The notes under the pieces: generated by a model
Database searches by the model: none
What the model was told of the DNA's origin: nothing
Seen by the model: the letters and a program-made list of their open reading frames with translations, nothing else
IMG/VR virus record: IMGVR_UViG_3300029309_000217
Location: 1 to 30,598 of that record
Reading direction: 5' to 3' (one strand)
Source of the DNA: a virus
DNA length: 30,598 bases
Shown: piece by piece, positions 4,333-29,491 of the stretch
Layout: every line of letters starts with the position of its first letter
Numbering within the stretch: the stretch's first letter is position 1
Made by a program: the position numbers and the translations under genes

Positions 4333-5034
4333 TTAGAGTAATTTACCTATCCATTTGCCAGATTTGTCTTTTATAAAAGGTTCTATTATTGGTAGGCCAT
4401 TATGTATTACAGAACAACCTATAATTGGTCTAGCTTTTTGTAATTTATTATATCTAAAGGCTAAACTTTTGGAGTCTATCATGCAACCAACTTGTAAGCC
4501 AAAATATAACCCTAAACTGTTTCCATAATATCTTACACCCATTAAAGAATGATAATGACCTTGTACACAACTCATGCCCATACTTTGTGCTAATTTTAAA
4601 ACATCTGCTGTTTTGCCATGACAAAAATAAACTTTTCCAAGTGGTGTATCTATTGTTAGATCATCATGCCATTTCCAATCTTTATTTACTTCTAAAAAAT
4701 CATTATATTTTTTTATATATGCTTTTGGAATTCCATGTTTAAATGCTCGTCTAAAAACTAAGCTACCATGATTAGAGTCCAACAAATCCATCTTAGGAAA
4801 TAATTTCTCTAGTTCTTTTATTATTGGTAAAGACATTTTTAATTCATCTCCAGCACTAGGAAGATCAGGGTCGCTATCGTGAAATGACATAGCGTGTTTA
4901 TCTACTTCATCTCCAATGTGAATTATTTTGTCAGGATTATATTTTTTTTTTAATAATTTTAAATAAGGTAATAGTTCGTTAACATGATATGGTATGTGAG
5001 TATCAGAAATAATAAGAACACTTTTATAAATCAT
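4333..5034 (-). CDS. Calcineurin-like metallophosphoesterase
   Basis: The 233-residue product carries the metallophosphoesterase motif set: SDTH (Asp11, His13), GDEVD (Asp42, Asp45), SNHGS (Asn88, His89), CHGK (His139) and GHYH (His160, His162). These ligate the two metals of phosphodiesterases and phosphatases. Length and motif spacing are normal, so it should be active; the substrate (DNA, nucleotide or protein phosphate) cannot be read from sequence. The start has no Shine-Dalgarno sequence and lies at the base of a perfect 8-bp hairpin. It is followed by DUF3310 in the late operon, perhaps a small nucleotide-handling pair. Confidence 0.88.
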   Translation of the reverse strand: MIYKSVLIISDTHIPYHVNELLPYLKLLKKKYNPDKIIHIGDEVDKHAMSFHDSDPDLPSAGDELKMSLPIIKELEKLFPKMDLLDSNHGSLVFRRAFKHGIPKAYIKKYNDFLEVNKDWKWHDDLTIDTPLGKVYFCHGKTADVLKLAQSMGMSCVQGHYHSLMGVRYYGNSLGLYFGLQVGCMIDSKSLAFRYNKLQKARPIIGCSVIHNGLPIIEPFIKDKSGKWIGKLL

Positions 5035-6056: not shown

Positions 6057-6536
6057 CTAGTTTTGTAGTTTTCCACCAGACCATTTCGCATCTGGTAATC
6101 CATTAGTATAAGACGACCCATCATATGTCAAAACTTGTTTTCTATTTGAGCCATCTTTGTATGATACATGAATCCACCCACTATTAGGTTCGCCTGTATA
6201 ATACTCCAAGATCAGTTGGTCAAAGTCGCAGTTGTTTTCTATCCATAAAGCTACTTGAAGATTAGATACTCCAGCTATTTCAAAATCTGTTGCGTTTCCT
6301 GTGGTGTGTTGTGATGTTTTTTTACTGCCTATTGCTTCGCATAATTCTTCTGATCTATAACCAGATGTAATAGTAACAGGCTTATCAAATTTAATTCTTA
6401 CAGGCTCTAATACTTCATAACATAGATCGCCTAAGTTTTTAATCTCTCCAGCACCAGCTTTATTCTTAATACCTTTTCTTGTAGCAGTTTGGCTTTTTTC
6501 AAATTCTTCTAATGTAAAATGTTTTGATAACTGCAT
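6057..6536 (-). CDS. M15-family peptidase, endolysin
   Basis: The 159-residue protein has the Zn-peptidase M15 (DD-carboxypeptidase/VanY-like) signature: SGYRSEELCEAIGSKKTSQH with His77, GNATDFEI with Asp84, and GWIHVSY with His123, which should ligate zinc. The N-terminal FTLEEFEKSQTATRKGI is also typical. Such enzymes cleave peptidoglycan cross-links. There is no signal peptide, so export would need a holin; holin-like genes are downstream at 3631-3993 and 5054-5284. Length is normal for a single-domain phage enzyme, with no separate cell-wall-binding domain. Confidence 0.9.
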   Translation of the reverse strand: MQLSKHFTLEEFEKSQTATRKGIKNKAGAGEIKNLGDLCYEVLEPVRIKFDKPVTITSGYRSEELCEAIGSKKTSQHTTGNATDFEIAGVSNLQVALWIENNCDFDQLILEYYTGEPNSGWIHVSYKDGSNRKQVLTYDGSSYTNGLPDAKWSGGKLQN

Positions 6537-14284: not shown

Positions 14285-14465
14285 ATTCCTCGTAATTAGT
14301 TTGGGTTACACTTTCTGTACCTTTTAACATAGTAAAATCAAATTTGCTATTAGGTTTCTTGTATTCTTTAAGATCGTTAATACTGCTATCTATTTCATCT
14401 TCATTAACAATAATTTCAGCAATAAAATCAGCAGTTATCTTATGGGTTATTTTATACTTTTTCAT
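14235..14465 (-). CDS. Small hypothetical tail-module protein (76 aa)
   Basis: The product has strand-like KYKITHKITADFIAEIIVNE and an acidic, polar C-terminus (YEEYDEKPDNSSKEP). It lies between two tail proteins and overlaps the next gene by 50 bases; the C-terminal residues in the overlap are low complexity. No family recognised. It may be a small assembly factor. Confidence 0.55.
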   Translation of the reverse strand: MKKYKITHKITADFIAEIIVNEDEIDSSINDLKEYKKPNSKFDFTMLKGTESVTQTNYEEYDEKPDNSSKEPISNK

Positions 14466-15085
14466 TAGAGTGCTTCTTCTACATCAATTTCAAATTGATA
14501 TAAAGCATCTCCATCTTTTGTTGCACCTACTACTCCAAACTCTTGAATATCATTTGTCATATAAACTGTAAAAGGAACATTATCATAAGTTACAACTTCG
14601 TCATCTGCTAAACTTGATACTAAAGGTGGTTCTATAGTTAAAGTTGATGCATTATTTGAGGGTTCTACATCTGCTACAATCATATAAATTTTTGTATGAT
14701 TAGCAAACTTAATAAAATCTCCACTTTTAAATGCGTTAGGATTATTATTGTGATGACCATTAACAGTTATAGTAGTATCTCCAGCAGTATGTGAACCATT
14801 AACTTGTATCGTTCCTGTTTCGTTGCCTCTAGCATTAGAAACTTCTGGTGGGATAATAGTAAAGTTTTCTTTGCCTGATCTTTGTTTAATTATAAAAGCC
14901 ATAAGTTTTCCATAAACATCATTTCTTTTTGCAGTTATAACTTGTGCAGTAAATCCAAATCTTTGACCATCAATTTGTCTTGATAATTTTTTACCACTAT
15001 CAGTTACTGAAATTATAGTGTTTTGTGTACTTTTAATTCCCATTGTAGAGAATTTTGCACTTGATATTGGAAACGCACCTGACAT
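14465..15085 (-). CDS. Distal tail/minor tail protein
   Basis: The 206-residue product starts MSGAFPISSAKFSTMGIKST. It has an RQIDGQRFGFTAQVITAKRN core, a beta-rich central region with a Thr/Asn/His loop (DTTITVNGHHNNNPNAFKSG), and a C-terminal YMTNDIQEFGVVG strand. A protein of this type sits immediately after the tape measure in many marine siphophages and is likely a distal tail ring component. It starts one base inside the tape measure stop region. Confidence 0.66.
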   Translation of the reverse strand: MSGAFPISSAKFSTMGIKSTQNTIISVTDSGKKLSRQIDGQRFGFTAQVITAKRNDVYGKLMAFIIKQRSGKENFTIIPPEVSNARGNETGTIQVNGSHTAGDTTITVNGHHNNNPNAFKSGDFIKFANHTKIYMIVADVEPSNNASTLTIEPPLVSSLADDEVVTYDNVPFTVYMTNDIQEFGVVGATKDGDALYQFEIDVEEAL

Positions 15086-16950
15086 TAAATTACAGCACCT
15101 CTACCTTGTTCATTTACAGCTGTATTAATTAAAGCTGATATAGTTCCTCTTGATCTTACAAGTAATTCTTCAAAGCCAGAAGCATCTACTGTATTAATAT
15201 TAAAATTAACTGTAGTAGCACCATTATTTCTTGTGCCTCTAGCATTTTGTGTAATTTGTCCTGTTTGGTTAGGAATAAATAATTCAGCACCACCCTCTCC
15301 AACTACGATTGGTTGGCCTTTTGAGACAGCACCACCTTTTTGAAATCCTTTAATTTTATTTACCATGCTCATTCCTGTCGCTATTACTCCACCAGCTACA
15401 GCAATATTAAATGGAAAAGGAACAGATGATAAGGCTTTTAAACCAGCTTTAAATACTGAAATTAATCCCTCTCTAATAGCTTCTAATTTAAATATTTCTG
15501 TTGCCTTTTTAATTGCAGATGTAACAACAGAACCTACTAATGCCTCAACTATTGATCTTATAATAGCTTCTTTTAATGTTTGAAAACTAATTTTACCTGT
15601 CATTACAAAATCACTTATTGAAGTTTTTAACGCTTTTAAAGAATCTTGACCAGCCTTTTGGAATCTTTCAAAAATACTAGTATCAAACTGTGATTTTAAA
15701 CCCTCTTTAAATCCACCAAAAGCATCTTCTTTAGCTTTTTCAAAAGCACTTGGTAATTTAATAGATAAATCGTGTATTATATCATGAATAGGTTGTTGTG
15801 TTTTAAAAAATTCTTCTGTTAATCTTTTTTCTTCTGCTGTTGCTTTTTTTATTGCAATAGCAGTATCACGAATTAATTTATTTCTTTCAGATATTTGGCT
15901 ATTCCCTGATAACTCATGTTCAAATGGTTCAATTTTTACTTTTATTCCTTTATCTCCAAATTTTTCTCCAAACTCATCTGCTTTTTCTATTAATTTTAAA
16001 ATTAAAGCTAAACCTAAAAATCCTTTTTTACCTAGCATTAAAGCACCAATAATACCAACCTGTTTCATAACAGCTGGTAAAGTGTCAAATGTTTCTTTTA
16101 AACCTACTAGTTGATCTTTAACTTTTGTTAAAAATGGAACTAAATCTTTTCCTAATTTAACAGCACCAACTATTGCGTTTGCTAAATTCTTTCCTATAGC
16201 TGTTGCAATTTGGTCTAATTGTTTTGCATTATTTTGTAAAAATGTATCTAAATCACCAAATTGATTTTTAAGTTCTTCAAAAAATCCAGCTTCTAATAAT
16301 ACTTTCTTAAAATTAAAAACTTTATCTCCAATCATTGATAAAGTTCCCTCAAAAGTATTTGCTAATTCATCTGTAGCTTTTCCAAACCTACCCTCTTTAC
16401 CAAACACTCTCTCAAACGCTTCCACAGTTTCTTCAATAGATACAGTTGCACCAGCTTTAAAGCCAAGCATATTTCTAACACCTTTTTCTCTAAATAAGTC
16501 TGCCGCACCTATACCAGCACTAAATGATCTTTGTATTTGTTCTCCAGCAGTTCTAAAATCTAATCCTGTTACAGCCGCAACATTACCTGTTATTTCTAAC
16601 ATTTTTTGTAAGTCATCTGCATTATCTGTTACTGTTGCAAGAATACCAGCACCAGATTGTATTTCTTCAAGTGAGAAAGGTACTTTAGATGCAAACTTAG
16701 TCATGTTCTCAAATGCCTTTGCACCCTCGTTTGTGTCTTTAAGTAAGAACTTTAATCTAGTTCTTAAATTCTCTAATTGTTTTCCTGTATTAACTAAATT
16801 TCTAACAACAAGCCCAGCACCTAAACCTAAAAAAGCATTTCTAAGATTGAATACAGAATCTTTTAATCTTCCTAAAGATTTTTGAACACCATTTAAAGCC
16901 TGTTTAGATTTATCTCGTGCTACTATGTCTATATTTAGTTTCTGTGTCAT
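15085..16950 (-). CDS. Tail tape measure protein
   Basis: The 621-residue product starts with a helical N-terminus (NIDIVARDKSKQALNGVQKS), typical of tape measures, and continues with long helices (SLEEIQSGAGILATVTDNAD, then FRTAGEQIQRSFSAGIGAAD). It has hydrophobic stretches near the middle and C-terminus and the conserved GQPIVVGEGGAELFIPNQTG element near residue 550. Its length suggests a tail of roughly 90 nm using 1.5 Å per residue. It follows the G/GT chaperone genes in the canonical order and starts in a TAATG junction with the frameshift extension. Confidence 0.9.
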   Translation of the reverse strand: MTQKLNIDIVARDKSKQALNGVQKSLGRLKDSVFNLRNAFLGLGAGLVVRNLVNTGKQLENLRTRLKFLLKDTNEGAKAFENMTKFASKVPFSLEEIQSGAGILATVTDNADDLQKMLEITGNVAAVTGLDFRTAGEQIQRSFSAGIGAADLFREKGVRNMLGFKAGATVSIEETVEAFERVFGKEGRFGKATDELANTFEGTLSMIGDKVFNFKKVLLEAGFFEELKNQFGDLDTFLQNNAKQLDQIATAIGKNLANAIVGAVKLGKDLVPFLTKVKDQLVGLKETFDTLPAVMKQVGIIGALMLGKKGFLGLALILKLIEKADEFGEKFGDKGIKVKIEPFEHELSGNSQISERNKLIRDTAIAIKKATAEEKRLTEEFFKTQQPIHDIIHDLSIKLPSAFEKAKEDAFGGFKEGLKSQFDTSIFERFQKAGQDSLKALKTSISDFVMTGKISFQTLKEAIIRSIVEALVGSVVTSAIKKATEIFKLEAIREGLISVFKAGLKALSSVPFPFNIAVAGGVIATGMSMVNKIKGFQKGGAVSKGQPIVVGEGGAELFIPNQTGQITQNARGTRNNGATTVNFNINTVDASGFEELLVRSRGTISALINTAVNEQGRGAVI

Positions 16951-17479
16951 TATTTAAACTTCTTTGCTTCTGCTAGTGATTGATTTGTTTTATACTGTTC
17001 TTGCTCTTTTTTCAAGTAAGCTAACCAAAGATTATAATGGCTAACAGGCATATCAAGAACTTGTTGGATTGTAAGATGTAATCGTTCTGCAATAACTAAT
17101 AGCGACCTAACATCTGGGTCGCTATCTACTTTTTTTCTGCGTCTTCGTAATTAGTATCTAAAAGTATTTGATTGGCAATAATAGATATAACATTTGAATC
17201 TGCTTTTTTCCTTAATGCAAATTTATCTTCTGGGCTAAATGCTTTAATCATTTCTCCTTTGTCATTTTTGACTTGGAGTTTCATTATAAGCAAATCAACA
17301 AGAATAGTTAAATCTTGAAAGTTGTTAGACTTCTTAAAGATAATGTTTTTTTCTTCAAGGGTTAATGGCTCTGAATAAAATATACTCGGATTACCATGCT
17401 CGTCTTTCCACTCGTTAACTTCAATAGTGATAGTTTTAAGAGTTTCAAAATGAGATTTAACTCTATCAATAACTGACAT
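16950..17479 (-). CDS. Tail assembly chaperone GT fusion by -1 frameshift
   Basis: The G-like protein ends with Glu-Lys-Lys-stop. The heptamer A AAA AAG (17129-17135, minus strand) lies in the correct phase just before the TAG. Slipping back one base continues with GTA GAT AGC and adds 59 residues (VDSDPDVRSLLVIAERLHL, then a TIQQVLDMPVSHYNLWLAYL segment) before a TAA at 16950-16952. The fusion is 176 aa. The extension has the helical, Trp/Tyr-containing character of lambda gpT-like regions and no start codon of its own. This is the same arrangement as lambda G/GT, where the two forms coat the tape measure during assembly. Confidence 0.85.
17099..17135 (-). promoter_or_regulatory. -1 frameshift signal: slippery site plus stem-loop
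   Basis: The slippery heptamer A AAA AAG is at 17135-17129 on the minus strand. Three bases downstream, ATAGCGACC (17125-17117) pairs perfectly with GGTCGCTAT (17107-17099) around a nine-base loop. A 9-bp stem close behind an A AAA AAG heptamer in correct phase is a classical -1 frameshift stimulator, similar to dnaX. The spacer is shorter than usual, so the lower pairs probably open in the ribosome. Confidence 0.85.
17126..17479 (-). CDS. Tail assembly chaperone, gpG-like
   Basis: The 117-residue zero-frame product begins MSVIDRVKSHFETLKTITIE. It has WKDEHGNPSIFYSEPLTLEE and VKNDKGEMIKAFSPEDKFAL, then a helical C-terminus ending TNYEDAEKK. It lies between the major tail protein and the tape measure, the standard position of lambda G and its analogues. 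It is the abundant short form; a fraction of ribosomes should slip at its last codons to make the fusion. Confidence 0.83.
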   Translation of the reverse strand: MSVIDRVKSHFETLKTITIEVNEWKDEHGNPSIFYSEPLTLEEKNIIFKKSNNFQDLTILVDLLIMKLQVKNDKGEMIKAFSPEDKFALRKKADSNVISIIANQILLDTNYEDAEKK

Positions 17480-17488
17480 AAATTAGGA

Positions 17489-17875
17489 TTATACAGTTCC
17501 TATAGTTAATGCACCAGTTCCTTGAAAAGTAACAGTTCTTGAAACAATTGCGTCCATTGAGTTATTAACTGACATTCCTGTAACAATTCCTGTACCAGTA
17601 AAACTTCTGTCGCCACTTGCATTACCCTCTGGGAGTAATATAAATGAGATTGAAGCACCAGCAATTAAAGTTGTTTGTGGGCTATCTGTTTCGTCAAAGT
17701 GCATTTCTAATGTTCCAGAGAATGAAGTTCGACCAGCAACAAATGATTTAGTAGCATCTGTTAAAGCTGTATCTTCTACAACATCTCCTGTAGTTTCAAG
17801 TGTGAATGATGTTAGTTCCCCAACAGCAGTTCCACCAGCAGTAACTACGCCCTCTTTTCCGTGATGTGTTGCCAT
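17489..17875 (-). CDS. Major tail tube protein
   Basis: The 128-residue product (MATHHGKEGVVTAGGTAVGE, then TSFTLETTGDVVEDTALTDA) has the beta-rich fold signature of GTA/HK97-type tail tube proteins. These include a FVAGRTSFSGTLEMHFDETD segment and a final VSRTVTFQGTGALTIGTV strand. It has a good RBS (GGATAAAAA). It precedes the tail chaperone gene, as in HK97-like tail modules. Multiple copies stack to form the tube. Confidence 0.85.
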   Translation of the reverse strand: MATHHGKEGVVTAGGTAVGELTSFTLETTGDVVEDTALTDATKSFVAGRTSFSGTLEMHFDETDSPQTTLIAGASISFILLPEGNASGDRSFTGTGIVTGMSVNNSMDAIVSRTVTFQGTGALTIGTV

Positions 17876-18009
17876 TTTTTATCCTTGTTTGATTTAGTTT
17901 GTTTAGTTTCTTTTTCTTGCTTATAGCCTAAAGTTAAAAAATGTTCAAGATTAGATTCATTAATAACAATCTCTGAATTACCTTTATATAATTTAATATC
18001 CTTAGCCAT
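17845..18009 (-). CDS. Small hypothetical protein overlapping tail tube gene (54 aa)
   Basis: The ATG at 18009 follows AAAGGACTT. The product begins MAKDIKLYKGNSEIVINESN and has LEHFLTLGYKQEKETKQ, then a Lys-rich end. It overlaps the start of the tail tube gene by 31 bases in another frame, so its last ~10 residues are constrained. The 'I-K-L-Y-K-G...LxxxLxxGY' pattern resembles small head-tail-region proteins in marine phages; function unknown. Confidence 0.58.
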   Translation of the reverse strand: MAKDIKLYKGNSEIVINESNLEHFLTLGYKQEKETKQTKSNKDKKWQHITEKRA

Positions 18010-18017
18010 AAGTCCTT

Positions 18018-18251
18018 TTACAGTTTATCATCTTCTTCGTCAATATCTTCTTCATCTTCCTCAAAATCTTCTTCAAAGTCATCTGATACATCTTCTTCTT
18101 CCCAAGAACCATCTTCGTCTTCTAAAGAGTTTTCTCTAATTTCTTCTACTAAGTCTTTTACTTCCTCACAAAGCATAGACTCTTTATCGTGTAACTTTTC
18201 GATCTGATCAATTTTTTTAGAAATTTTATCTAATAGTTTTTCGTTTTTCAT
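18018..18251 (-). CDS. Strongly acidic coiled-coil protein (77 aa)
   Basis: The N-terminal half is a coiled coil (LLDKISKKIDQIEKLHDKES). The C-terminal half is nearly all Asp/Glu (EDVSDDFEEDFEEDEEDIDE), giving a very negative charge. It has an AGGATAAAAT site before the ATG. Acidic tails of this kind occur in chaperones, DNA mimics and histone-binding-like proteins; which applies here cannot be read from sequence. It sits between the tail terminator-like gene and the tail tube gene. Confidence 0.65.
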   Translation of the reverse strand: MKNEKLLDKISKKIDQIEKLHDKESMLCEEVKDLVEEIRENSLEDEDGSWEEEDVSDDFEEDFEEDEEDIDEEDDKL

Positions 18252-18259
18252 ATTTTATC

Positions 18260-18697
18260 CTATGGTGTTCCAGCTTGATATTCGTACATACACCTAATTG
18301 TCATTCTTATTCCACCAACAGGAAATAAAGAACCCTCATCAGTTTCTACTTGTATAACTTCTGAATCAAGTGCATTACCATTTCGAGTAATATCAGTTTC
18401 TAATGCAGTTTCAATAGCTGTGATTAATTCATTTCTTTTTGTATCTATATTGGCCTCTGCACCTTTTACAAATCCAAGTATTACAAAGTCTATAGTGCCA
18501 TGCCTAGTTTTAGCACCACTTCCTAACTCAGAGTCATCTCTATTTTCTTCTGATGTTTGAACTATTACTGCTGGATATTGTTGCTCTGATAACTCATCTA
18601 ATAAAAAAGGTTGTCTTGTAGCTTTTCTAATATCTGGGCTAGATATAGCAGATATAACTGACAATAAATTACTCGCTATGTTTTCTCTTACACTCAT
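18260..18697 (-). CDS. Tail terminator/minor tail protein
   Basis: The 145-residue product begins MSVRENIASNLLSVISAISS. It contains YPAVIVQTSEENRDDSELGS, a FVILGFVKGAEAN strand, a helix KRNELITAIETALETDI and a terminal GGIRMTIRCMYEYQ strand. That alternation of helix and strand is typical of tail terminator proteins such as gpU or HK97 gp10-neighbour proteins. It follows the neck gene by a four-base overlap. Confidence 0.66.
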   Translation of the reverse strand: MSVRENIASNLLSVISAISSPDIRKATRQPFLLDELSEQQYPAVIVQTSEENRDDSELGSGAKTRHGTIDFVILGFVKGAEANIDTKRNELITAIETALETDITRNGNALDSEVIQVETDEGSLFPVGGIRMTIRCMYEYQAGTP

Positions 18698-27633: not shown

Positions 27634-27997
27634 CTACATCTTCTGCTTTAGCGTCTATAACCAATGGTAAAGGCTCGTTAATGTTTTCGGTTTGGGTTCT
27701 ATCTTTCATTCCTAGATAGTTTTTACTTAACCAAATCTGCATATGGGTGTTATCTTTTTTAACTGCCTTATCCCACATTTTCTTTCTTAAACTAGCTTTA
27801 CCCTTTTCTTTAAACTGCTCTACAATATCTGCATAATTTCTTTTTAATGTTTTAGCTGATATATTTAAAACACTTGCTATTTCATAATCAGGACAGCCAA
27901 TAGAGGCTAAATTCTTTAGTATTTCTATATCGACCACTATCTTGGGTCTTCCAGCACCCTGTCTTTTTTCTGTCTTATTTGCCTTAATTTTGTCCAT
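27626..27997 (-). CDS. Terminase small subunit-like HTH protein
   Basis: The 123-residue protein begins with a Lys-rich tail and GAGRPKIVVDIEILKNLASI, then CPDYEIASVLNISAKTLKRN, a helix-turn-helix. A C-terminal helix SLRKKMWDKAVKKDNTHMQI leads to WLSKNYLGMKDR. This is the usual small-subunit layout of marine siphophages (HTH followed by a WLGKxxLGQKD-like motif). It recognises packaging sites for the large subunit. It follows the methyltransferase gene with a 14-base overlap. Confidence 0.82.
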   Translation of the reverse strand: MDKIKANKTEKRQGAGRPKIVVDIEILKNLASIGCPDYEIASVLNISAKTLKRNYADIVEQFKEKGKASLRKKMWDKAVKKDNTHMQIWLSKNYLGMKDRTQTENINEPLPLVIDAKAEDVDG

Positions 27998-29207
27998 TTT
28001 CTAACTCTGCCTTTTTCCCTGTAAAGTTCTCCCATCTTTTAATAATTACATCACAGTATTTAGGGTCTAATTCAATAATATAACATATCCTATTTAATTT
28101 TTCACAGGCAATTAATGTCGTTCCTGTGCCACCAAAACAATCTAAAATTAAAGAATTTATTGATGTAAAATTTTTTATAATATTTTCAGGTAAATAAACA
28201 GGAAAAGTTGCTTTATGTATTTTACTATATTGATTACCAGTTGCATTTTTTCCCTCAATAACATTATAATAAGAACCTTGTGTAAATTGATAATTTTTAA
28301 ATCTTCTTTTACCATCTCCAAATGTTAATATAAATTCTACCAAGTTATTAATTATTCCTTTTTGAATATGTGGAGCAACAGAGGATTTTTTCCAATAGAT
28401 TATATCTTTAAATTTATTTTTAAAATTATGTATTAAATCAAATATAGATTTTTTGTTGTTTTGCACTAAACCTATATTATAAAAAACTTCTTCTGAATAT
28501 TTTAATAAATAAGTTAAATTAATATTAATAAATTTATCATATTCGTCTAAACTCATATTATCTTCAAAATTATTATATTTTTTTTCTGTTCTGCTATTTC
28601 CATCAATATTTAATGACCCAGCATTATAAGGTGGAGAGGTAAATGTAATATTGCATATTTTATCATCTAATATTTTTTTATATGTATCTTCATTAATACT
28701 ATCCCCACACATAAGTCTATGATTACCAAGTTTCCAAATATCTCCTAATTTAGTTATAGGTTCTTCAGGTGCTTCAGGTACTTCATCTTCATCAGTTAAA
28801 CCTTGTTTCTCCTCAAATAACATATCGTTTAGTTGATCTTCATTAAAACCTAATAAGTCTAATTTAAAATCTTTAGCCTCTAAATCTTTTATTTCCATTT
28901 TAAGTAATTCACTATCCCACTCGGATTCTTCAGCAGTTCTATTATCAGCTATTCTATATGCGTTTATCTGTTCTGGTGTAAGATTGTCAGCAATAGTTAT
29001 CGGTACTTCTTTAAAACCTAATTTTTTAGATGCTCTATACCTAGTGTGGCCTACAACAATAATTCTATCTTTATCAACTACTATAGGCTGTCTAAAGCCA
29101 TATTCTTTTAAAGACATAGCAACCTTTTCTATAGCTGAGTCTTTTAATTTTCTAGGATTGTTCTCATAAGGTTTTATTGTATTTATATCTGCATTTTCTA
29201 TTTTCAT
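27984..29207 (-). CDS. ParB-like nuclease/DNA methyltransferase fusion
   Basis: The start at 29207 has GGAGAT upstream and overlaps the preceding TAA (TAATG). The N-terminal ~125 residues are a ParB/Srx-type domain (IKPYENNPRK 11-20, VVGHTRYRAS 51-60, QINAYRIADNRTAEESEWDS). The C-terminal part is a beta-class methyltransferase, with SPPYN (191-195, motif IV) before DCFGGTGTT (356-364, motif I). SPPY suggests N4-cytosine or N6-adenine methylation. No restriction gene is adjacent, so it is an orphan enzyme. The central ~130 residues are Asn/Lys/Ile rich and AT-richer than neighbours. It precedes TerS directly. Confidence 0.88.
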   Translation of the reverse strand: MKIENADINTIKPYENNPRKLKDSAIEKVAMSLKEYGFRQPIVVDKDRIIVVGHTRYRASKKLGFKEVPITIADNLTPEQINAYRIADNRTAEESEWDSELLKMEIKDLEAKDFKLDLLGFNEDQLNDMLFEEKQGLTDEDEVPEAPEEPITKLGDIWKLGNHRLMCGDSINEDTYKKILDDKICNITFTSPPYNAGSLNIDGNSRTEKKYNNFEDNMSLDEYDKFININLTYLLKYSEEVFYNIGLVQNNKKSIFDLIHNFKNKFKDIIYWKKSSVAPHIQKGIINNLVEFILTFGDGKRRFKNYQFTQGSYYNVIEGKNATGNQYSKIHKATFPVYLPENIIKNFTSINSLILDCFGGTGTTLIACEKLNRICYIIELDPKYCDVIIKRWENFTGKKAELENGQN

Positions 29208-29491
29208 TATATCTCCAATTTTTTCATTTCTTTTATGCAACCAATAGGAAAGACATTTACATCTCCAAATACTGCCTCTTTATCATCATGTGAAGCAAAA
29301 GTTTTTAAAAAGTTTTTATCTTTAGAAAATACATAGGCTTGAGTTACCATAACACTAGGCTCAAATTTTTTAATATCATCTACTGTGTGCCAACCAGAAT
29401 CTCCTGTAGGGTCTGAAAATTTAATACTGTAAAAGTAGTATTTCTTGTTCGATATTGAAATGTGTCTAAATTTTGACTTTTTTCTGACCAT
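29207..29491 (-). CDS. Conserved hypothetical protein (94 aa)
   Basis: The product has SNKKYYFYSIKFSDPTGDSG followed by WHTVDDIKKFEPSVMVTQAY, VFSKDKNFLKTFASHDD and VFGDVNVFPIGCIKEMKKL. The 'I-x-W/F-x-D-P-x-G-D-S-x-W...TxAYVFsKDkxxLxTFASxD...FGDxxVxPxGCI' pattern is recurrent in marine phages, function not established. Its TAA overlaps the methyltransferase ATG, so the two are coupled. Confidence 0.68.
   Translation of the reverse strand: MVRKKSKFRHISISNKKYYFYSIKFSDPTGDSGWHTVDDIKKFEPSVMVTQAYVFSKDKNFLKTFASHDDKEAVFGDVNVFPIGCIKEMKKLEI

Follow-up and report, generated by a model that had tools for sequence, protein, structure and literature searches.

Predicted programmed −1 frameshift at the G/GT tail chaperone locus of a pelagiphage, with differing signals among its relatives

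Frameshifting between the tail genes G and T of phages has long been known, and a related Rhodobacter phage already carries the annotation; the site considered here, at the end of gene G in a 30,598-base virus record (IMGVR_UViG_3300029309_000217; this whole stretch is called the window), is new only as a further member. The window is an HTVC111P/HTVC112P-type pelagiphage, the host group being the ocean SAR11 bacteria. In lambda, the slippery heptamer is G_GGA_AAG, and Xu, Hendrix and Duda reportedly described the frameshifts of HK97-like tail assembly chaperones in 2004. Both the lambda G/GT frameshift and those of HK97-like chaperones are covered in PMC5009743 (in part). The annotated Rhodobacter case is RcCronus (Cronusvirus), with a genomic G+C content of 65.4% according to its paper. 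Among the titles listed by open-access literature searches on pelagiphages, roseophages, and tail-chaperone frameshifting, none names the site of the window or the long-range helices described below; neither is described in the available parts of PMC5009743, PMC8163748, PMC10504331, PMC10885494, PMC8546989, PMC8601537, PMC4882933, and PMC3711429.

The site of the window is, with high probability, a programmed −1 ribosomal frameshift that would yield a GT-type chaperone; we infer a fusion protein and a fixed G:GT ratio. All features described here lie on the minus strand. Gene G (17126–17479) is an open reading frame (ORF) running from 17479 to 17126, has 117 codons (117 amino acids in the zero frame), and ends with GAA AAA AAG TAG. 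An earlier, sequence-only reading had placed the heptamer A_AAA_AAG in the correct phase just before the zero-frame TAG, and this is confirmed to the base: the heptamer occupies positions 17135–17129 (17129–17135) and touches the stop codon UAG at 17128–17126. Although the string AAAAAAG is frequent in the AT-rich window (38 matches vs. 30.7 expected), AAAAAA[G/C] in phase and at most five codons from the stop is found in 1/77 window ORFs of at least 60 amino acids, namely in G. Three nucleotides (nt) past the heptamer starts a stem of 9 base pairs (bp), ATAGCGACC (17125–17117) with GGTCGCTAT (17107–17099), enclosing a 9-nt loop (17099–17125 as a whole); the stem region has a fold z-score of −3.64, and 0/200 shuffles fold equally well. 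The perfect 9-bp stem of the sequence-only reading is present in the window, whereas the conserved part is a 7-bp core, AGCGACC (17123–17117) with GGTCGCT (17107–17101), which spans 17101–17123, has the same 9-nt loop, and is separated from the heptamer by a 5-nt spacer. The −1 frame extension, or T domain (16950–17129), is open, as had been proposed, for 59 codons up to the tape-measure ATG, from GTA (17129–17127) through TAA (16952–16950), 117 + 59 codons giving 176 amino acids, and the homologous extension is open in relatives. The GT stop codon overlaps the tape-measure start codon in UAAUG (16948–16952), the last A of UAA being the first base of AUG.

Relatives were collected in 321 records, which come from five scans of viral contigs guided by protein queries, together with five phage records and the window itself; two records were excluded, L195 (cut before the stop) and L321 (not a relative). 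These first five scans gave at most the best 80 loci each, with 508, 427, 398, and 492 relatives found in four of them. Identity of the window G is 95.7% to HTVC112P, 78.6% to HTVC111P, 54.7% to HTVC202P (residues 1–106), and 48.3% to HTVC026P. An in-phase heptamer at most 12 nt from the stop is seen in 319/319 judged relatives: A_AAA_AAG in 162 (clade A, to which the window belongs), A9C in 155 (clade B, that of HTVC026P and HTVC202P), and A6C, one codon before the stop, in two (one Sinorhizobium phage and one contig akin to it). In the 162 A_AAA_AAG loci, the stop adjoining the heptamer is UAG (126) or UAA (36). Clade A takes its name from the heptamer; the counts free of that assumption are those by query: the window G query yields A_AAA_AAG with adjacent stop in 80/80 loci, and the HTVC111P G query likewise yields A_AAA_AAG in 79/79 new loci; the HTVC026P G query yields A9C in 80/80, and the HTVC202P G query in 73/74 new loci, the remaining one being cut. 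The −1 frame is open for 45–60 codons in 317/319 relatives and cut in two, and the UAAUG offset is common to 156/161 A_AAA_AAG loci and to 142/156 other loci of the first set, six of those being cut. Related phages without the heptamer and the extension, the case that by the sequence-only reading would refute the frameshift, were sought and not found among relatives that can be recognised by their G; two further lineages, described below, add 120/120 loci with the heptamer. The scans overlap by contig; the tests on distinct sequences used 105 of the 161 clade A loci with full flanks (of 162) and 123 of 154 clade B loci (of 155).

Judged from the alignments, the heptamer, the adjacent stop, and the hairpin are conserved beyond coding need. 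The alignment of homologues that the sequence-only reading had suggested as a check bears this out: the 105 distinct clade A sequences show no synonymous variation in the codons GAA AAA AAG, AGC GAC, AGG, and TCG, which make up the heptamer and the hairpin arms. Invariant degenerate codons amount to 7/7 at the heptamer and stem vs. 20/143 in the background, the two codons overlapping the stop being excluded from both sides (hypergeometric value 3e-6, relatedness ignored). The AGG is fixed in 105/105, whereas an Arg codon elsewhere in the extension varies 64/38/3; TCG is fixed in 105/105, though it accounts for 4/389 Ser codons in 16 window genes. The hairpin core is perfect in 95/105 sequences. 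Of the outer stem pairs, that at offsets 4/30 is formed in 102/105 and that at offsets 5/29 in just 18/105, hence the conserved element is the 7-bp core with its 5-nt spacer. This places a conserved structure within 5–9 nt past the heptamer, the spacer range used by many studies (PMC5009743, in part). The paired fraction of the hairpin is 0.988 vs. a mean of 0.60 and a maximum of 0.661 under synonymous permutation, and the mean fold z-score is −3.16 (sample of 40 of the 105). A Shine–Dalgarno-like GAGGA is found 6 nt upstream of the heptamer in 89/105. A second, weaker 7-bp helix of clade A pairs the heptamer region with +303 and shows no variation on both sides. In a viral scan that required the 3′ arm (at least 120 stretches, 80 loci read), 76/80 loci have AGCGACC; two turn Arg8 to Trp with the RNA arm kept, which proves little, as the arm was required by the design of the scan.

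Gene order, fold, and profile matches support the identification of a lambda/HK97-type G/GT pair, in agreement with the lambda-type tail proposed in the sequence-only reading. G lies between the major tail (tube) protein gene, its upstream neighbour (17489–17875; phrog_10528 major tail protein, 5.5e-9), and the gene of the 621-amino-acid tape measure protein (15085–16950; Pfam TMP_3, 1e-10, and Tape_meas_lam_C, 5.3e-8). A structure model of G, built from an alignment of 75 sequences taken from the window and the loci (predicted local distance difference test, pLDDT, 79.5), has as its best matches among solved structures the HK97 tail assembly chaperone 2ob9 (Foldseek E 0.044, probability 0.97) and YqbN, 3klu (E 0.037, probability 0.90); no PDB match was obtained by Foldseek at E ≤ 0.001. 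With VIA-align, the model superimposes on 2ob9 with Z 9.1 and a root-mean-square deviation of 3.3 over 101 aligned residues, and on 3klu with Z 6.9 over 100 residues, Z of 7–8 being called common by the tool. Among predicted viral structures, the tail assembly chaperone of Rhodobacter phage RcRhea matches the model at 5.6e-5. The predicted fold of G thus resembles that of the HK97 chaperone. For the fused reading, the match to phrog_16513 reaches 8.7e-8, residues 3–158 on 6–156 of 160, both halves being covered, and the annotated RcCronus fusion matches the same profile end to end (1–160); these two matches link the T extension by homology to the T half of an annotated fusion. By itself, G has no PHROG match up to E 1, and T has a weak one (E 0.05). 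In Pfam, neither G, nor T, nor the fusion has a family above the cut-off, and a profile search of G against sequences of solved structures gave nothing credible (best E 0.2).

If the open −1 frame were due to chance or a sequencing error, G would merely end at UAG; the plentiful AAAAAAG strings of A-rich DNA noted above would allow this, but the same layout recurs in separate assemblies and in two cultured isolates and is accompanied by synonymous and amino-acid constraint. An explanation that conservation contradicts in this way is scarcely credible, and we rejected it. Slightly less remote, though still highly improbable, is an independent small gene T with its own start codon, coupled to G and producing no fusion. 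The −1 frame had been said to have no usable start; this holds up to extension codon 27, where an in-frame internal ATG does occur and could serve such a gene. That ATG is the first ATG, GTG, or TTG of the −1 frame in 147/162 A_AAA_AAG loci, the other 15 having TTG or GTG at codons 11–12, so codons 1–26 lack any of these in 147/162 loci. Yet codons 1–26 are under protein-level selection: their diversity by codon position in clade A is 0.153/0.011/0.25, a pattern that marks selection on the protein read in the −1 frame. Further, the −1 frame has a stop directly 5′ of the heptamer in 32/162 loci, from which it follows that the frame is entered at the heptamer or later, and it is the fused reading that matches the profile built on an annotated fusion. 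Independent initiation of T was rejected on the selection on codons 1–26 and the absence of start codons there in most loci.

Transcriptional slippage, in which RNA polymerase lengthens the A run by one A and the altered mRNA is translated normally into the fusion, takes up most of what doubt is left, yet it too is improbable for the clade of the window. A homopolymer is present at the site, slippage of bacterial RNA polymerase is efficient on runs of 9 A or T (PMC5009743, in part), and sister clade B has exactly A9. The run here, however, is A7 followed by G in 162/162 A_AAA_AAG loci, short of the approximately 9 A/T, and slipping on A7 would be too little, if extrapolated from the cited 9; this lowers the claim but does not end it, because context-dependent sites on shorter runs are known (PMC5009743, in part). 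Likewise, the conserved hairpin at a 5-nt spacer suits a ribosome, but does not exclude slippage by itself, as a nascent RNA stem can stimulate polymerase slippage (PMC5009743, in part). On A7-G in all loci and the hairpin at its 5-nt spacer taken together, transcriptional slippage was rejected for clade A.

Under programmed −1 ribosomal frameshifting, most ribosomes would read G and terminate at UAG. In a minority, with lysyl transfer RNAs (tRNAs) on AAA in the P site and AAG in the A site, the hairpin at the mRNA entrance would stall the ribosome; both tRNAs would re-pair one base back, on AAA AAA, and translation would continue through the 59-codon T domain, the product being the 176-amino-acid GT fusion. 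The roles would be those known from lambda, with G coating the tape measure protein and a few GT molecules recruiting tail-tube subunits through their T domains. Since the GT frame closes with UAAUG, it is the frameshifted ribosomes, not those terminating at UAG, that would reach the tape-measure start; coupling of tape-measure translation to frameshifting through UAAUG is speculative.

In E. coli, the sole tRNA-Lys makes A_AAA_AAG shifty (PMC5009743, in part), and by analogy the host tRNA set should help frameshifting at this heptamer. In two genomes, one tRNA-Lys (UUU) and no CUU are found among the tRNAs read by ARAGORN at loci matching RF00005 (30/32 and 30/30 matches); neither set is complete, since 30/32 were read in one genome, and Ala and Ile are absent from the other. 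Both genomes share their family with a Pelagibacter metagenome-assembled genome (MAG), the source of locus L449 (see below), which has 14 tRNA matches and was left out. A search of 31 genomes with a tRNA-Lys motif failed (one match in one search, none in the other).

Several observations weigh against programmed ribosomal frameshifting with the hairpin as its stimulator. The window itself is among the sequences that lack GAGGA (16/105); GAAGA stands in its place. The clade A core is almost invariant, base-pair changes on both sides being seen only in the long-range helices of relatives, so covariation gives no proof of pairing here, and the argument is one of synonymous constraint and permutation. 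Because the sequences are related to one another, the significance values are inflated; the codons tested had been picked by function. Finally, the hairpin is absent in the sister clade, hence some members do without it.

As far as can be told from their sequences, relatives keep the frameshift with different signals, and the swapped stimulators are the interesting part. In clade B, GTA (122) or GCA (1) is followed by AAA AAA AAC in 123/123 distinct sequences; the A9C run is located at the stop in 146 of the 155 loci, and 3 or 12 nt before it in nine. The slip-site Val is encoded by GTA in 122/122 vs. 436/1023 elsewhere in G, and the slip-site Asn by AAC in 123/123 vs. 116/752. Where UAA follows (115/123), AAT would be synonymous in both frames, hence the C is held for some other reason. 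No helix of at least 7 bp with 85% paired was found in clade B when sought from −40..+40 as far as +378, the 40 nt past the shift site show no fold beyond chance (mean z 0.29, 40 sequences), and GAGGA is seen in 0/123 sequences. RNAalifold predicts a 6-bp hairpin near +29 that is weak (−1.6 kcal/mol), and z is under −2 at +30..+90 in 45% of a 40-sequence sample; clade B thus lacks a conserved helix in the usual place, not all structure. One contig titled as a Candidatus Pelagibacter MAG (L449) carries a clade B chaperone with A9C; it is either a provirus or phage DNA that was binned with a host genome. For pelagiphage Kolga, the S21 gene has been speculated to serve tail frameshifting (PMC8163748, in part); Kolga gp10, the gene before the tape-measure-like gene, has no heptamer, G not having been sought elsewhere in Kolga.

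The two further lineages, collected with Roseobacter phage CRP-811 and the lake phage DSL-LC06 as queries, have A_AAA_AAC in 120/120 loci, at the stop in 117 and 3 nt before it in three, and both have a long-range helix beginning 6 nt past the heptamer. The DSL-type helix has 10 bp and a 62-nt loop, with 97.8% of cells paired in 32 sequences (alignment A3, columns 14–23 with 86–95; 31 of the 40 DSL-query loci L329–L368 and DSL-LC06, heptamer-at-stop only). Two-sided changes are seen in 18 cells vs. 5.6 in shuffles (0/500), and synonymous permutation gives 0.79 vs. 0.978 observed; this helix is likely a frameshift stimulator. The CRP-type helix has 11 bp and an 81-nt loop, with 97.6% paired in 45 sequences (alignment A4, columns 14–24 with 106–116; 43 loci and two phage records from the 80 CRP-query loci L369–L448, heptamer-at-stop only), and 14 two-sided cells vs. 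5.1 in shuffles (0/500). Support for it is weaker, because pairs with two-sided change number 2 vs. 1.0 (62/500), and permutation gives 0.931 vs. 0.976. GAGGA precedes the heptamer in 58/62 CRP and 15/34 DSL sequences; in DSL, GAG is found at the motif codon in 31/34 vs. 32/234 Glu codons elsewhere.

In a tree of GT (sample of 79 proteins), A, B, CRP, DSL, and Cronusvirus each form one clade, A and B are sisters (97/89), and DSL, then CRP, fall outside; the tree has a midpoint root, unsettled bootstrap values, and long branches meeting at the base, and the slip-site columns were retained. On a tentative and, in our judgement, rather doubtful joint reading, sister lineages may have exchanged the entire control cassette of a homologous tail frameshift: clade A would use ribosomal slippage on A_AAA_AAG, a local hairpin, and usually a Shine–Dalgarno-like motif; CRP and DSL, A_AAA_AAC and a covarying long-range helix; and clade B, an invariant A9C, its fusion being made by slipping of RNA polymerase, either alone or in combination with a tandem slippery site. 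Such an arrangement might be likened, with no more assurance, to the contrast between E. coli and Thermus dnaX, here within sister clades of SAR11 phages. RNA polymerase slippage at the clade B A9C is, taken separately, possible, its A9 reaching the homopolymer of about 9 A/T associated with transcriptional slippage. The fixed C and the retained heptamer weigh against a purely transcriptional mechanism; a ribosomal tandem site A_AAA_AAA_AAC would explain the pattern too.

The sequence-only reading expected automatic callers to miss the extension, and indeed a fusion or joined gene is annotated in 0/4 Pelagibacter phage records looked at. Antisense ORFs are annotated over the T extension in HTVC112P (gp41, L082 3406–3552) and HTVC111P (gp45, L083 3406–3558); both are probably spurious. 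Since a frameshift of this kind is textbook knowledge, what is gained directly is a correct annotation. Beyond this, the homologous tail frameshifts, hundreds in number, share their protein output and have the stop at or close to the heptamer but differ in their stimulators; they make a natural comparison, from which the minimal needs of a frameshift signal, and the circumstances in which a phage might use RNA polymerase, could be tested in reporters.

The lambda-like tail module of the window comprises a tail terminator, the major tail protein, G, the 621-residue tape measure, and a distal tail protein. The tape measure, distal tail protein, tail terminator, and tail tube genes (14465–18697) indicate a long-tailed phage, while the names of the isolate relatives end in P; the tape-measure gene thus points to a long-tailed virion for phages named with a final P. 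Other PHROGs matches in the window are a ParB/methyltransferase fusion (27984–29240), an exonuclease (1278–2096), a metallophosphoesterase (4333–5034), and an endolysin (6057–6536). Rfam at gathering thresholds gives no matches across the window, and ARAGORN finds no tRNA in it.

Compared with known systems, the locus of the window resembles those of lambda and HK97 in the order tail tube, G, T, tape measure, in the −1 slip near the end of G that would give a longer chaperone, and in the HK97 chaperone fold; it differs from lambda in its heptamer, A_AAA_AAG, with the stop directly behind. RcCronus shares the homologous GT, annotated there as a joined coding sequence, the heptamer adjoining the stop, and phrog_16513 spanning both halves; its site, however, is G_GGA_AAC UGA, and the local structure is different. 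HTVC026P and HTVC202P of clade B have homologous G and T, a stop close behind the shift site, and mostly the same UAAUG overlap; they differ in their A9C run and in lacking both GAGGA and a conserved helix close to the run. In dnaX of E. coli, the distance from the Shine–Dalgarno-like motif to the heptamer is about 10 nt, whereas in relatives of the window it is 6 nt; moreover, the shift yields a shorter product in dnaX and would yield a longer one in the window. Common to both are A_AAA_AAG and a simple downstream stem loop (PMC5009743, in part), and, in most relatives of the window, the upstream Shine–Dalgarno-like element.

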